From NCBI GenBank assembly GCA_015522475.1, contig WAMF01000013.1, positions 1 through 33,022 on the forward strand: a stretch of DNA of 33,022 nucleotides, given 5' to 3'. The position numbers and the translations under genes were made by a program. The stretch's first letter is position 1. Each line of letters starts with the position of its first letter. Positions 17,636 to 31,391 of the stretch are shown here, in pieces. This DNA is from Microcaldota archaeon. GTDB taxonomy: Archaea; Micrarchaeota; Micrarchaeia; Anstonellales; J096. Below the pieces are notes generated by a model. It did not search any database. It had not been told where the DNA came from and was given only the letters and a program-made list of their open reading frames with translations.

Positions 17636-17671
17636 CTTATATACTATATAGACCAAATAGTATAGACCAAA
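17636..17671 (+). promoter_or_regulatory. tRNA-Gln upstream element with duplicated TATAGACCAAA
   Basis: TATAGACCAAA occurs at 17647-17657 and again at 17661-17671 (period 14), after a CTTATATAC TATA-like element at 17636-17644. The tRNA begins 13 nt after the second copy. The element may be promoter plus 5' leader. Confidence 0.45.
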
Positions 17672-17683
17672 ATTGAGTGAAAA

Positions 17684-17756
17684 AGCCCCGTAGTCTAGTG
17701 GCCAAGGATGCCGGGTTCTGGCCCCGGTGACCCCGGTTCGAATCCGGGCGGGGCTA
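17684..17756 (+). tRNA. tRNA-Gln (anticodon CTG)
   Basis: The acceptor AGCCCCG pairs with CGGGGCT, with discriminator A. The anticodon arm CCGGG-TTCTGGC-CCCGG gives anticodon CTG. The T arm is CCCGG-TTCGAAT-CCGGG. It is 73 nt, intronless, with no encoded CCA. Two direct repeats lie just upstream. Confidence 0.96.
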
Positions 17757-17825
17757 CTCTTTTCTCTGTCTTTTCTCCATTCCGTATAGACGGATAGGCC
17801 CATCCCATTAACCACGCCAATCATA

Positions 17826-17882
17826 TAACGATCATGTAACAATCGCATAACGATCACATAAATTACAACAAGCTTTATATAC
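17826..17882 (+). promoter_or_regulatory. Operator-like 11-bp tandem repeats plus TATA box
   Basis: Three head-to-tail 11-bp units, TAACGATCATG, TAACAATCGCA and TAACGATCACA, occupy 17826-17858, followed by TAA. Fourteen bases later CTTTATATAC (17873-17882) is a good TATA box. The unit length is about one helical turn, so three identical protein contacts would align on one DNA face immediately upstream of the promoter. An activator or repressor site for the next gene is likely. Confidence 0.6.
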
Positions 17883-17930
17883 ATTCTCCACTAAAAGCAA
17901 CTGAAAGGCAAAGTGAGAAATGGTGAAAGT

Positions 17931-19004
17931 ATGGGAAGAAAAGAAATGAAAAGAAAGCTAAAGACACCAAATAAGCTGAATAGGGTGGAACCGGCACCAT
18001 TATTAAGGAGAAAAGAGCTCATAGAGGACAAGATCTTCTACGAAAGTTGTAAACCAGTGGGAAAAGTAAGCGAGCGTGTACACAATGCATTCATAACAGG
18101 AAGAGAAGCGTTTAAGTATGCGATTCTTGAAGTAGAAAATGAGCTGGCCAACAAAATAACCCACTTCAAAAATGCATGGCAAGAAGGCTTGCTTCTCCAC
18201 ATGCTACGGTGCAATCCCTCTTCATTAGGAAATGGGCTAGAAGTTAAAGCTATACGAAAAATCAAGCACCTAAAAATAAAGGAGCTTTACAATCTCGTTA
18301 AAGAGGAAAATAATGAAGAAAGAGCTAACGACTCCAGTTTAACCAGCTTAGTACGGTGGCTTATACATGACGAAGAAGAAGCGCACCTTGCCCTTATGTA
18401 TACAGCTAGAGAAAGTGGAGAAACGGCTAACCTTGTGCTTAAGATAGTGGAGCAATGGCTAGAAGTCGTTCAAAAGGTCTCCCCAGCCTTCCAACCCAAC
18501 CTCTTTCAAAATGCACACTGCACTCCAAGAGAAAGCTTAAGGTTCATATTAAACACATCGTGGGGGGGTTTAAGTGAATCCATTTATGGACTCGTATTCG
18601 AGCTCAGTCCTATGGTGCTTGCCATAAGAAACTTGAACTTTGACACAGCTATAGAGTTTGCAAAGAAGGGCGGAAGCCTCCTTATCCCTCACAAAGGCAA
18701 GAGCCTTACCCCACAGGATATCAGTTTATGGGAAGGCGCTTTCAAAAAAAGAGGTCTTTACTTAGAAGATGTGAAGAAAAGCGACTCTCCTTTAATGGAC
18801 ATCATGGATGTCGTCATAGAAGCAAGTATAGGCATAGAGGCATATGCAAGAGGAGATCTAAGTGAAAAAAACGTTATAATAATAAATGGCCTAAACAGCC
18901 ACAAGGTTTACAGTGCCTTCCAAAAGCTCAATATAATGCATTTCAACGAGAGAGGCAAAAGCCCAACAAAGGAAAGTGAAAAGTCGAACAAAGCCAAGAT
19001 ATGA
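17931..19004 (+). CDS. Orphan protein, function unknown
   Basis: I do not recognise this 357-residue protein. It has no signal peptide or clear membrane helix and is mostly helical, with a basic N-terminus and C-terminus. Features are an acidic patch, IHDEEEAHLALMYTARESGE (about 144-163), the segment WGGLSESIYGLVFELSP (about 211-227), and a short KKGGSLLIPHKGK turn (about 249-261). The start is set at the ATG at 17931, which has GGTGA 4 nt upstream; an in-frame GTG at 17913 would add six residues. A TATA box at 17873-17882 predicts transcription from about 17904, giving a leader that contains this site. The three-unit operator-like repeat implies specific regulation. It stands alone between tRNA-Gln and DtdA. 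Confidence 0.65.
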   Translation: MGRKEMKRKLKTPNKLNRVEPAPLLRRKELIEDKIFYESCKPVGKVSERVHNAFITGREAFKYAILEVENELANKITHFKNAWQEGLLLHMLRCNPSSLGNGLEVKAIRKIKHLKIKELYNLVKEENNEERANDSSLTSLVRWLIHDEEEAHLALMYTARESGETANLVLKIVEQWLEVVQKVSPAFQPNLFQNAHCTPRESLRFILNTSWGGLSESIYGLVFELSPMVLAIRNLNFDTAIEFAKKGGSLLIPHKGKSLTPQDISLWEGAFKKRGLYLEDVKKSDSPLMDIMDVVIEASIGIEAYARGDLSEKNVIIINGLNSHKVYSAFQKLNIMHFNERGKSPTKESEKSNKAKI

Positions 19005-19125
19005 TACAATATATAATACAATACCTATCCGTCTTACAACAGCCCCTACTACCCCTACTCGAGCCTATTGAGTCCTCGTGCCACACATCGTGTCACAGTC
19101 AAAATCACTTCATAACAACCACTTC

Positions 19126-19902
19126 TTATAGTCGCTCTATGGGCAAATCCAACTCCTCAGCCAATGCTTTTATTCTCTGTCTTTGTGGACCTCTAAGACC
19201 TTTCCAATCAAGGGCAAACCCATCGACTTTAACCGTGCTTTTCTCTACCGCTTGCTTTAACACATCATCTGTTGTGCAGTCCATTGCATACTTGGCTAGT
19301 ATGTGTGAGAAGGCCCAACCCCGCTCAACGGTGGCCTTTACAAATTTGGGCGCGTAATGCCCCCCTCCGAAGCCGACAAATACGGACTCAGGCTTCGCCT
19401 CGCTTCTTAAGGCGAGAGGCACGGCCTTAGCCAAAACCTCTGCTAGATCTTCTCTATTCCACATGCTCTCATCGCTGCCTATTTCATAAAAAACAACTGG
19501 ACTGTTAATGGTGGGGCCATGATGATCCACTTCGTATGAAAAGTCTAAGCCCAGCTTTGCCTCTTCGACAAGCTCATAGGCTGCCATAAAAAGTCTGTAG
19601 CTAAAGATAGGGTCGCTCATATTAAGCGTGAAGCCCTTGCCACTCACCCAAGGCTCGCAGGGATTGCCCGGCACATGCAGCGAGAGAAGAGGTATGTTCT
19701 CCTTACTCTTGTGAGGGGAGAGCACAAGGATTTGGTCTGCTTCTGCTTCCCACTTTACTTGATGTTCGACGAGCTTCCAGCTTATATGCCACTCACCTAT
19801 CGAGCCCATCGGAGACAAATGAGAGGATAGCTCAGCCTTTAGATGCTTAGCCATAAGGCTGCTAGGGGCTCTATCTGTATGGACAATGAGCAGTTCGCGC
19901 AT
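19126..19902 (-). CDS. dtdA: D-aminoacyl-tRNA deacylase (DTD2, archaeal/plant type)
   Basis: This enzyme removes D-amino acids wrongly attached to tRNA, protecting translation. The 258-residue product shows archaeal DtdA landmarks: LLIVHTDRAPSSLMAKHL near the start, a central LSLHVPGNP, YEVDHHGPTINSPVVFYEIG with clustered His residues, and FGGGHYAPKF, then WAFSHILAKYAM. The start at the ATG at 19902 restores the family N-terminus MRELLIVH and lies 27 nt from a TATA box at 19924-19934. Longer in-frame forms would read through that promoter. The gene diverges from a TPR gene across only 50 nt and shares the TATA element. Confidence 0.92.
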   Translation of the reverse strand: MRELLIVHTDRAPSSLMAKHLKAELSSHLSPMGSIGEWHISWKLVEHQVKWEAEADQILVLSPHKSKENIPLLSLHVPGNPCEPWVSGKGFTLNMSDPIFSYRLFMAAYELVEEAKLGLDFSYEVDHHGPTINSPVVFYEIGSDESMWNREDLAEVLAKAVPLALRSEAKPESVFVGFGGGHYAPKFVKATVERGWAFSHILAKYAMDCTTDDVLKQAVEKSTVKVDGFALDWKGLRGPQRQRIKALAEELDLPIERL

Positions 19903-28552: not shown

Positions 28553-29692
28553 TTAAGCCAACTTCAAATGGAGAAAGCCGGCGATGCTCTTCAGAAGGCC
28601 ATTCATAACGAGCTTCTTAGCTAAAGCTATGAACTCGCGCACAGAAAGCCTGCTTAACCTCTCTTTGAGCCATTTAGTATAGAGGCGCTCAGCTTCTAAA
28701 ACACGCAAGAGGAGGGCAACACTTTTTTTATGCTCTATGAGCCACTTCAGGCGTTTTTGGGTTAGCTTGGGAAACTTTGGCAAGATGTGCTTGGCAAAGT
28801 GCTCTAAGCCATTCTTTTTTATGTCGTCTATAGCCTCGCCATACAGCTTCTCCAGCTCATCCAGCTTTTTTAGGATAGCGGCTTTTCTCTCAGCAGCTTT
28901 GTCCATGTTCTTAGGTGTTTCCTTAATTATATCGTCGACATCTTTAAGCACGTCTGTGTCAAAAGATTGGCCAAAAGGCCCTTTTTTGCCGTCGAGCTCT
29001 CTGTCAAGTTCTTTGGCAAGCTTCTCAATCTGGCCTTCTACCTTCTTTTTGGCTTTCTCATCGACGAAAGAAGCCGCTATATAATCATCAACGAGTGTAG
29101 GGTCTCTATTGGCAACAGATGCCTCTGCAACAATGTAGTCTATGTCCTTTATCTTTATCTTGTGCTTTACAGGAAAAACCTCTACTTTCTTCGTCGTTGG
29201 ATCTACATAAACAAGGGCAAAGCCATCTTCTATCTCGCTCTCCTTATACACGACATCCTTCTTGAACCGCGGCGACGAAGTTGACGAAGAGGAATTTGCG
29301 AGTTTCAAGCCCGGCTCCTTAAAGCGCTGAATCTGAGCCTGAGCCGCTTGGATTTCTTGCCCTTTCACAACGACGGGCTGCGGCAACTCGAATTGTTGCA
29401 TAGCCACGTTCACTTGAGTAATCTTTAAAGTGGAAGGCAAAGCCATCGCAGCCCCGAACGGCGTAGGTGGTGGATTATTTTTCGGGCTGTTGGTTCTTGT
29501 TGGGCTCTCCCCAATAAGGGAAAAAACAAAGGGCAGAACAAGCGCGCTTGTTAGAGAAACACCACCTGCAATCGAGACGGCGGATGCATTTTTGGCAAGA
29601 GACGGGATCTCCTGTAAATAAGTCAAGCGCTCTGTTAGGCTAGTAGACGCTTCAAGTTGAGCCCCACCTGCTTGCCCATCTCCACCATTCAT
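28553..29692 (-). CDS. Hypothetical single-transmembrane protein with Pro-rich and coiled segments
   Basis: I do not recognise this 379-residue protein. It has a soluble N-terminus of about 36 residues, one transmembrane helix (about 38-60, NASAVSIAGGVSLTSALVLP onward), then a Pro/Asn-rich stretch (KNNPPPTPFG) and a Gln-rich segment. A small beta-looking part follows (DVVYKESEIEDGFALVYVD; about 145-200). The last 180 residues are charged and helical, ending in a Leu-rich C-terminus. A TATA box (minus strand, 29712-29721) is centred 24-25 nt before the ATG, supporting the start. It lies directly downstream of two pilin-like genes on the same strand but has its own promoter. The short cytosolic N-terminus, one TM helix and Pro-rich linker loosely recall VirB10-like bridging proteins; that is only an analogy. 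Confidence 0.65.
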   Translation of the reverse strand: MNGGDGQAGGAQLEASTSLTERLTYLQEIPSLAKNASAVSIAGGVSLTSALVLPFVFSLIGESPTRTNSPKNNPPPTPFGAAMALPSTLKITQVNVAMQQFELPQPVVVKGQEIQAAQAQIQRFKEPGLKLANSSSSTSSPRFKKDVVYKESEIEDGFALVYVDPTTKKVEVFPVKHKIKIKDIDYIVAEASVANRDPTLVDDYIAASFVDEKAKKKVEGQIEKLAKELDRELDGKKGPFGQSFDTDVLKDVDDIIKETPKNMDKAAERKAAILKKLDELEKLYGEAIDDIKKNGLEHFAKHILPKFPKLTQKRLKWLIEHKKSVALLLRVLEAERLYTKWLKERLSRLSVREFIALAKKLVMNGLLKSIAGFLHLKLA

Positions 29693-29768: not shown

Positions 29769-30110
29769 TTAATGGAATGTACAGTTGTTTGGATCGTACG
29801 TCATACCAAGCATAGCCGCGAGCACTTGAGGAATGATAAGCACTAAAAGCAGACCTATAACTGCGCCAGCTAGTAAACTATGGCTCCAAAGAATAGCCCT
29901 AGCTCTCATTTCAGCTCCTAACATCTGGCCAGCAGCATAGGAAATGCTTGAAAGAGCAACCATAACAATGGCAAGATTCCCTATAACCTGATAAAGAAAC
30001 TTGCAAAGTTGTTGAAGAGCAGTTTGCAAGTTGCTCGTAGCTGCACTCACCATGCTAAACGCAAATATTTCAAAAAGAAGAAAGAGAACAAAGAGGGTTT
30101 TTATTTTCAT
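29769..30110 (-). CDS. Small VirB2/TrbC-like pilin candidate, copy 2
   Basis: The 113-residue product has a signal peptide (about 1-23, ending MVSAA), then a helical segment with LQQLCKFLYQ, and two long hydrophobic helices (about 42-63 and 79-100). They are joined by a short polar loop, GAEMRARAILW. This signal plus two-helix hairpin with a small basic loop is the layout of VirB2/TrbC conjugative pilins. It is clearly a paralogue of the preceding gene: both share Y-A-x-G-x-x-L-G-x-E-M-x-A-R-A-x-x-W, one Cys early in the mature part and one Cys near the C-terminus (NNCTFH). A 9-nt gap and a GGGTGA site overlapping the upstream stop indicate one operon. Family assignment is by architecture, not by a strong motif. 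Confidence 0.6.
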   Translation of the reverse strand: MKIKTLFVLFLLFEIFAFSMVSAATSNLQTALQQLCKFLYQVIGNLAIVMVALSSISYAAGQMLGAEMRARAILWSHSLLAGAVIGLLLVLIIPQVLAAMLGMTYDPNNCTFH

Positions 30111-30119
30111 TGCCTGGGC

Positions 30120-30491
30120 TCACCCACAAGTCTTCTCTAGATCGAGGCTCGGCACAAGCTTGCCTAATAAGTAAGGTAGAATTATGAATAGAATCACACC
30201 TATAATTGTATAGACGATAAGATTAAGAGCCCAGCTCTTAGCTCTAGCACCCATTTCTTGGCCAAGCACATGGCCACCAGCATATATAACTGCCGCTAGC
30301 ACAACAATAGCCACGATTAAAGGCCCAAATATGCTCTTTACCAAGTCATACAAGTCGCACAAAGCGCTACTTATTCTTTGAGCTGCTTCACCACTAGCGC
30401 CGGTTGAGCCTCTTCTTGCAACAGCACCAGAGACTAGAGCACTACCTACAAGTAATAAAAGGAATACTGCCATAAGGGTCTTCCTATACAT
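30120..30491 (-). CDS. Small VirB2/TrbC-like pilin candidate, copy 1
   Basis: This 123-residue protein begins with a signal peptide (MYRKTLMAVFLLLLVGSALV, likely cut after SGA), then a Gly/Ser/Arg-rich start of the mature chain. A first hydrophobic helix (about 57-78) with Cys in SALCDLYDL just before it, a loop GQEMGARAKSW, and a second helix (about 91-112) follow, ending with EKTCG. The two cysteines could pair to lock the hairpin. The ATG at 30491 is chosen because GAGGTG lies about 7 nt upstream; the in-frame TTG at 30506 would cover that site. A TATA-like element (minus strand, 30528-30537) gives it a promoter separate from the lipoprotein gene upstream. If it is a pilin, partner ATPases must lie outside this window. 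Confidence 0.6.
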   Translation of the reverse strand: MYRKTLMAVFLLLLVGSALVSGAVARRGSTGASGEAAQRISSALCDLYDLVKSIFGPLIVAIVVLAAVIYAGGHVLGQEMGARAKSWALNLIVYTIIGVILFIILPYLLGKLVPSLDLEKTCG

Positions 30492-30539: not shown

Positions 30540-31391
30540 CTACTTACACTCTCTCGTGTAAGGATCACATATCTGCCCCGTGCCACAGTCACTGTCCATG
30601 TTGCATCTGCCCGGAAGAACGACACATTTTCTCTCCGCTTGATTGCAATATTCCCATTCTGCGCAATCGTTGTCTGTGTTGCATCTTCCTCTCTGTGGCG
30701 TGCATTCGTGCGTTTCTTTAGAACAATATTCCCAGCTGTTGCATTCAGAACTTGTATCACAGTAGCCGGGTAAGGCCCTGCACTTGTGAGTAGCGACATT
30801 GCAGTACTGCCAATCACCACAGTCCTCGTCTATATTACAAAAACCTTCCTTTGGAATGCATTCTGTATCATTGCAAACTTCCCATGCATTGCAATCTTTA
30901 TCTGTAAAACAGCGGCCAGCTATAGGCACACATCTGTGCTTATTACATATCTGCCAAGCAGCTTCACAGTCGTAATCGTTGTTGCAATAGCCGGGTTTTG
31001 TCACGCAGACATGATCTTCTGAACAAACTTGTGTAGATGTGTTGCAGTCGAGGTCGCTGGCACAGAAGCCTTTAGCCGGGACGCAGGTATGGGAGCTAAG
31101 GTTGCATACTTGCCAGTTCTCACAGTCTGCATCCATAGAGCAAGCTCCTTGCTTCGGTATACAAGCGTGTGTCTTCAAATCGCATACTTCCCATGCATTG
31201 CAGTCTTTGTTAGCTGCGCACATACCTTTGGCTGGAACGCATGTATGAGAGCTAAGGTTGCACGTTTGCCACGTCTTACAATCTGTGGCTTTTGAACACT
31301 TCGTTATGCCAGAACTCACACAGCCCGAGAGAACGACCGCTAAAAACAGAAGAGCCACGACTACGAACGCGAATAGAAGTTGCCTATCCAT
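30540..31391 (-). CDS. Lipoprotein of ten tandem four-cysteine repeats
   Basis: The 283-residue product has a signal peptide with lipobox LSGC (C24), so it should be lipid-anchored outside the cell. Almost the whole mature chain is ten repeats of about 26 residues, consensus C-x4-DC-x2-W-x2-C-x5-H-x-C-[VI]-P-x2-G. Each has four cysteines, and repeats 4, 5 and 6 have small length changes. Repeats 1 and 3 share NLSSHTCVPAKG exactly, showing recent internal copying. Forty repeat cysteines suggest a disulfide-rigid rod or binding surface, as in small cysteine-knot/EB-like modules. GGTGAT lies 5 nt before the ATG. It precedes the two pilin-like genes on the same strand. The ligand is unknown. Confidence 0.78.
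   Translation of the reverse strand: MDRQLLFAFVVVALLFLAVVLSGCVSSGITKCSKATDCKTWQTCNLSSHTCVPAKGMCAANKDCNAWEVCDLKTHACIPKQGACSMDADCENWQVCNLSSHTCVPAKGFCASDLDCNTSTQVCSEDHVCVTKPGYCNNDYDCEAAWQICNKHRCVPIAGRCFTDKDCNAWEVCNDTECIPKEGFCNIDEDCGDWQYCNVATHKCRALPGYCDTSSECNSWEYCSKETHECTPQRGRCNTDNDCAEWEYCNQAERKCVVLPGRCNMDSDCGTGQICDPYTRECK

Follow-up and report, generated by a model that had tools for sequence, protein, structure and literature searches.

In archaea, the Ced and Ted systems consist of a minimal set made up of a two-helix pilin, a VirB6-like channel with a pilin-like front end, and a VirB4-like ATPase (PMC9905601). These two systems are mutually unlike in sequence; the front end of CedA is CedA1-like, and TedC has a cleavable signal peptide (PMC9905601). 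Among ultrasmall bacteria, Patescibacteria possess a T4SS with a chromosomal VirB4, most of them without relaxase, and close to virB4 they have VirB2-like pilins of the T4SS_pilin family (PF18895), in arrays of 2-11 divergent members (PMC12102498). In the pilins TrhA (H-pilus) and TrbC (RP4), the ends of the mature subunit are joined by peptide-bond cyclisation, with C-terminal trimming, and pili cannot form without this ring closure (PMC12037004). It is an open question by what means DPANN archaea attach to their hosts and exchange material with them, and the 2025 T4SS nomenclature review mentions neither DPANN nor Micrarchaeota.

The window that we analysed, a DNA stretch of 33,022 nucleotides, is one contig (C13) of the 910-kb genome assembly (23 contigs) of a tiny-genome DPANN archaeon, Candidatus Micrarchaeota archaeon. 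Its minus strand encodes, 9 bp apart and in this order, two small proteins that start with ATG, pilin A (P0002; 30120..30491, 123 aa) and pilin B (P0001; 29769..30110, 113 aa). Their similarity exceeds chance and marks them as paralogues (31% identity over 114 aa, BLASTP E=4e-14), and they share a loop of the form G-x-E-M-x-A-R-A-x-x-W between two long hydrophobic helices (GQEMGARAKSW in A, GAEMRARAILW in B). By inspection of the sequences, each protein has exactly two cysteines, one near either end of the hairpin: Cys45 (codon 30357-30359) and Cys122 (30126-30128) in pilin A, and Cys36 (30003-30005) and Cys110 (29781-29783) in pilin B, all on the minus strand. AF2 modelling with a 47-sequence alignment predicted a hairpin of two helices (residues 36-75 and 78-112) with pLDDT >90 in the core. 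Together with the putative N-terminal signal peptides, which were judged by eye only, the sequences and the model give both proteins the layout of small exported proteins with a signal peptide, two hydrophobic helices and a short basic loop. An earlier note, made from the sequence alone, had described tandem paralogues with a signal peptide, two helices, a common loop and paired cysteines; this held and the positions were confirmed, the signal peptide remaining a by-eye call. Its placement of one cysteine at the C-terminus of each protein also held, and that of the other before the first helix did so only in part: in the AF2 model, the first cysteine lies within the first turns of helix 1, not strictly before it. 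A third paralogue, devoid of cysteines, is encoded elsewhere in the same genome (L037:9459-9767, minus strand).

Of 59 relatives, 58 have homologues of pilin A; a genome typically encodes two to six of them, frequently as tandem copies (2-4 per locus). The family profile matched 135 of 146 genomes sampled from the phylum Micrarchaeota, across which the two-cysteine hairpin layout is conserved. The commonest Pfam match in this family was T4SS_pilin (19 of 47 homologues, best E-value 3.6e-6), followed by TrbC (PF04956; 9 of 47, best 2.6e-5). Comparably weak matches to EamA, Yip1 and Cyt_bd_oxida_II concerned fewer members than the pilin families. The two window proteins score below the curated Pfam cut-offs for TrbC and T4SS_pilin (16.6-19.2 bits versus 26.6-27.9); by this criterion they are pilin-like and not formal members of either family, so that the sequence match alone is a lead and not a proof. 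Searching the family profile against PDB chains produced no significant match (the R388 pilin TrwL appeared only at E=0.32) and detected neither CedA1 nor TedC. A Foldseek search of the hairpin model against the PDB likewise found nothing, which is uninformative since the hairpin is too simple.

The two cysteines are kept or lost jointly: among 66 scored pilins, 58 had both, 7 had neither and 1 had only the first (Fisher p=1e-8), the second cysteine of this single exception falling just outside the scoring window. The test ignores relatedness, and kinship inflates its significance. At least two joint losses are clearly independent, the independence of the others being less clear. One affects the middle gene of a tandem trio (L017), in which both flanking pilins retain both cysteines; the other affects the third-pilin lineage of the genus, in which the copy of one genome (G002) retains both and those of two others (G000 and G001) have none. 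The N-terminal cysteine is mostly situated 25, 22, 21 or 18 residues before a conserved tyrosine, offsets that fall mainly on one helix face (mean resultant length 0.80, n=59), and the C-terminal one lies on a tail ~45 residues past the loop (offset 47 to 61). Both positions are predicted to face outward, and cysteines elsewhere in the hairpin are nearly absent (3 of 70). Two DsbA-like proteins over cut-off are encoded in the window's genome, and in one relative (L183) a DsbA-like gene lies 31 bp upstream of a pilin with the cysteine pair. VKOR was discarded as a disulfide source, being absent from the window's genome and present in only 3 of the 59 genomes. From the coupled presence and absence of the cysteines we infer that a disulfide probably ties helix 1 to the C-terminal tail within each pilin, the oxidation state itself also being an inference.

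In the phylogenetic tree, the orthologues of pilin A formed a clade (6 genomes, support 91/93) separate from that of the pilin B orthologues (8 genomes, support 97/94). The separation of these clades across the taxonomic family indicates that A and B were established before the family diversified and were kept side by side; the two are, therefore, an old two-subunit pair in this family, in contrast with the near-identical tandem pilin copies of other families (L012, L045). The maintenance of two old orthologous lineages suggests that both are probably used, either in a hetero-pilus or as alternative subunits, although co-assembly is unproven and a single filament containing both has not been established.

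The window's genome encodes, on another contig (C3), a VirB4/TraC-like ATPase of 525 aa (L038:7499-9076), identified by profile matches (DUF87, 2.6e-12; TraG P-loop domain, 7.6e-9) and by a match to the PDB structure of VirB4 4ag5 over residues 64-338. When compared with plasmids, 4666 of its 4904 matches were in conjugative-typed records, the named ones being mostly TraC/VirB4. We rejected a HerA-like identity for it, given that, with the P-loop near residue 70, a HerA-type N-terminal domain would hardly fit in front. The same contig also encodes another DUF87 protein, 626 aa long (C3:2300). Directly upstream of the 525-aa ATPase, a gene present in 59 of 59 genomes (here L038:6646-7476) encodes a protein of 276 aa that has two membrane helices and that no Pfam family describes. 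The eight best PDB matches of its AF2 model (pLDDT 91.9, 63 sequences) were all R388 TrwK/VirB4 or VirB3-VirB4 complexes (probability 0.90-1.00), the fold matching best the VirB4 N-terminal domain, with the caveat of E-values of 0.01-0.07 and TM-scores of only 0.31-0.38. An hhalign comparison of the 276-aa protein with one PrgI/SCF-like pair, from the Vallitalea plasmid pVpro, was not significant. The simplest reading, predicted from the model and homology, is that the 276-aa and 525-aa proteins represent a split VirB4 preceded by VirB3-like helices. The window's genome would then have the VirB4 ATPase with N-terminal domain expected of a T4SS, the latter domain being recognised by predicted fold only. 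The order 276-aa gene, ATPase and genes for proteins of 213, 236 and 833 aa is kept across the phylum, and most genomes outside the window's family have two copies of the 276-aa gene. Other families also contain a second compact module (L094:7224-9185 and on; also L095, L096 and L199), which in L094 consists of a signal-less two-helix protein of ~81 aa, a VirB6-like protein with six transmembrane segments, a 276-aa homologue, the ATPase and a 236-aa homologue.

At the end of a third contig (C1), the window's genome encodes a row of three polytopic proteins that we call VirB6-like (L036:15235-19969). None had a Pfam match above cut-off, one showed a weak TrbC match at its N-terminus, and the label is derived from their topology, their place in operons and the fusion to pilin domains, without a profile match. 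Aligning the front ends of VirB6-like proteins with the pilins by hhalign gave a weak, only suggestive, similarity (E=0.003, probability 10%). The resemblance is clear in fused members: in L052, L053 and L107, a polytopic VirB6-like protein opens with at least one pilin domain, which recalls the CedA1-like front of CedA. A pilin-channel fusion of this kind is the 534-aa polytopic protein at L053:8214-9818 (minus strand), which starts with two successive pilin domains. The VirB6-like row of the window's genome is immediately preceded by an open reading frame (L036:8551-15159, plus strand) for a 2202-aa protein with an N-terminal signal-like segment; it is possible that this protein is a large surface component of the apparatus.

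The operons of relatives link these genes. In L166, L170 and L171, the motor genes are immediately preceded by rows of six VirB6-like homologues; three tandem pilins lie directly in front of the motor in L158 and L162, and two in L192; and L194 has on one strand two tandem pilins, six VirB6-like genes, two 276-aa homologues and the ATPase. Pilins encoded together with VirB4 and VirB6 homologues, as expected of VirB2/TrbC-type conjugative pilins, were found in L145, L158, L162, L192 and L194, and these pilin-motor operons tie the pilin family of the window to a type IV secretion-like machine. In a rough estimate without a formal test, the number of pilins and motors within 15 kb of each other in these draft genomes looked no higher than expected by chance, so we restricted the linkage evidence to directly adjacent operons. 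In the window's genome the pilins, the ATPase module and the VirB6-like row are all present but unlinked and, because they lie on different contigs, their cooperation is inferred from the relatives.

The earlier note had read A and B as VirB2/TrbC-like pilins, a claim to which the Pfam matches, weak though in the lead, lend some support and the operons of relatives far more. It had named two observations that would refute it: the absence of a VirB4-like ATPase, which the genome does carry, and better profile matches to an unrelated two-helix family, where T4SS_pilin and TrbC in fact lead by count and E-value. The VirB6/CedA-like channels that it proposed to look for have a counterpart in the polytopic row, with the reservation made above about its label. 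The two-subunit version that it suggested agrees with the two orthologous lineages, co-assembly aside, and its disulfide is supported by the coupled cysteines but not demonstrated. The Ced/Ted type holds as an analogy of architecture only, without sequence relation to CedA1 or TedC in the PDB-chain search.

We found no PF03432 relaxase, the only relaxase family looked for, in any of 29 genomes, and no PF02534 (VirD4) coupling protein in the window's genome; 3 of the 29 genomes had weak or giant-ORF matches to the latter. By these searches, the relaxase plus VirD4 of a conjugative T4SS are not present. In the absence of a PF03432 relaxase and of a clear coupling protein, a role in Ced/Ted-like DNA uptake or exchange, or in host-cell contact or secretion, is favoured over plasmid conjugation; this is an inference, made without data on import activity. 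Two relatives have giant open frames, 4596 and 3271 aa long (G024:C15:89226, in L204, and G019:C6:8809), that show a P-loop match of coupling-protein type and recall the SPEARE-type proteins of nanohaloarchaea (PMC10266531).

Two further genes flank the pilin pair, also on the minus strand. The downstream one (28553..29692) encodes a 379-aa protein with one predicted membrane helix followed by a charged helical domain, predicted to be likely cytoplasmic, and its function remains unassigned. Each of the three genomes sampled from the genus has it following the A-B pair, the homologues directly after the pilins matching at E=4e-49 (L003/L042) and E=2e-32 (L004), and no convincing homologue was found elsewhere among the sampled loci. 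On the other side, 48 bp upstream of pilin A, lies the gene of a 283-aa lipobox protein (30540..31391) with repeated Cys-rich (DUF7107/Dickkopf-like) units and Pfam matches to DUF5885, DUF7107 and Ldl_recept_a. This gene was not found beside the pilins of relatives. Since some pilins of relatives carry comparable Cys-rich tails as fusions (L046:7834-9123, 429 aa; L040:13464-15185, 573 aa), this lipoprotein-like protein may be a surface or pilus-associated adhesin and a fourth member of the cluster, its membership being uncertain. Among other pilin neighbours, a 1404-aa membrane AAA ATPase with an internal intein carrying a LAGLIDADG domain (L041:178-4392, minus strand) is encoded a few kb from four tandem pilins, and in L040 a related ATPase (17643-19901) comes immediately after a pilin.

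Our preferred explanation is that A and B are, most probably, paired major VirB2-like pilins of a chromosomal type IV secretion-like apparatus, with disulfides tying them on the surface of the pilus; their function and the oxidation of the cysteines are both inferences, and no pilus has been observed. Judging from the sequences, both precursors would be exported and lose their signal peptides. Each pilin would then sit in the membrane as the hairpin predicted by AF2, with an inferred topology that places the Arg-rich loop inside and both ends outside. A disulfide between the cysteine at the start of helix 1 and that near the C-terminus, supported by their coupled conservation but not shown, would join the two ends on the outer face; by our own analogy, this cystine would do what head-to-tail cyclisation does for TrhA and TrbC. 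Finally, the split VirB4 (276-aa membrane partner and 525-aa ATPase) and the VirB6-like proteins, identified by homology and operons, may extract and polymerise the subunits into a pilus whose lumen would be lined by the basic loops.

A and B might belong to the same machine as membrane-bound channel parts and not as filament subunits. No filament has been observed, and the fusion of closely related domains to the front of polytopic VirB6-like proteins means that the fold also serves inside the membrane complex. However, the signal-peptide-like starts and the tandem arrangement of 2-4 copies at a locus are in keeping with an abundant exported subunit, and the archaeal CedA1 was itself once thought to be a membrane part and later shown to form pili (PMC9905601), so that we consider this reading improbable. 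That the proteins come from an unrelated two-helix membrane family, such as a transporter fragment, and resemble pilins by chance can practically be ruled out. The similarly weak matches to EamA, Yip1 and Cyt_bd_oxida_II speak for it, but the pilin families are hit by more members and with better E-values, and the association with a VirB4-type motor in operons is specific.

The cysteines also admit other readings. The disulfide could connect neighbouring subunits (A-A, B-B or A-B) and cross-link the pilus wall, a variant that does not exclude the preferred explanation. The tail that carries the C-terminal cysteine, with its variable offset, gives that residue reach. Nevertheless, the pair is also present in pilins that apparently have no second copy at their locus (e.g., L050), and the L017 copy lost both cysteines while its neighbours keep theirs, as expected for self-pairing subunits; on balance we lean against this variant. 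Much less probable is that the cysteines form no disulfide and instead bind metal or carry a lipid or another modification. There are only two of them, conserved in position, and the genome has no VKOR, but two thiols alone make a poor metal site, DsbA-like proteins are encoded in the genome, and a neighbouring exported protein has regularly spaced cysteines typical of extracellular disulfides.

The open-access literature searched, which left out most subscription papers and bioRxiv preprints, yielded no account of this system; to that extent, the type IV secretion-like apparatus inferred here for Micrarchaeota as a phylum appears to be undescribed, its structure, oxidation state and function not having been shown. 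A near-universal apparatus of this type would be a concrete candidate for the attachment of DPANN archaea to their hosts and exchange with them. A bolder reading, which in our opinion could as easily fail as hold, is that Micrarchaeota ancestrally own a T4SS-like pilus made of at least two disulfide-locked ('pseudo-cyclic') VirB2-like subunits, with a split VirB4 and a VirB6-like row, for contact or DNA exchange with other cells, for example hosts.

The apparatus parallels that of epibiotic Patescibacteria (PMC12102498): an ultrasmall lineage, a chromosomal VirB4 mostly without relaxase, several divergent pilins, and T4SS_pilin as the commonest pilin match. It differs in being archaeal and in its split VirB4, its rows of several VirB6-like genes, its conserved pilin cysteine pair (the word 'disulfide' is absent from PMC12102498) and its own accessory genes (213, 236 and 833 aa). 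With Ced and Ted it shares the three-part minimal set, so far as the proteins labelled VirB6-like are its channel, whereas it belongs to another phylum and has multiple pilins with a cysteine pair, extra conserved subunits and several VirB6-like proteins in a row. Its motor resembles bacterial VirB4/TraC (R388 TrwK, F TraC) in the P-loop domain by sequence and in the N-terminal domain by predicted fold, but the latter has a gene of its own and is preceded by two membrane helices, in a VirB3-like position. As in TrhA and TrbC, the ends of the mature pilin would be covalently joined, here by a cystine, so far only inferred, instead of a peptide bond. If true, this end-to-end clamp, an idea that simple biochemistry could test, would be a third pilus design beside the open and peptide-cyclised pilins of conjugation type.
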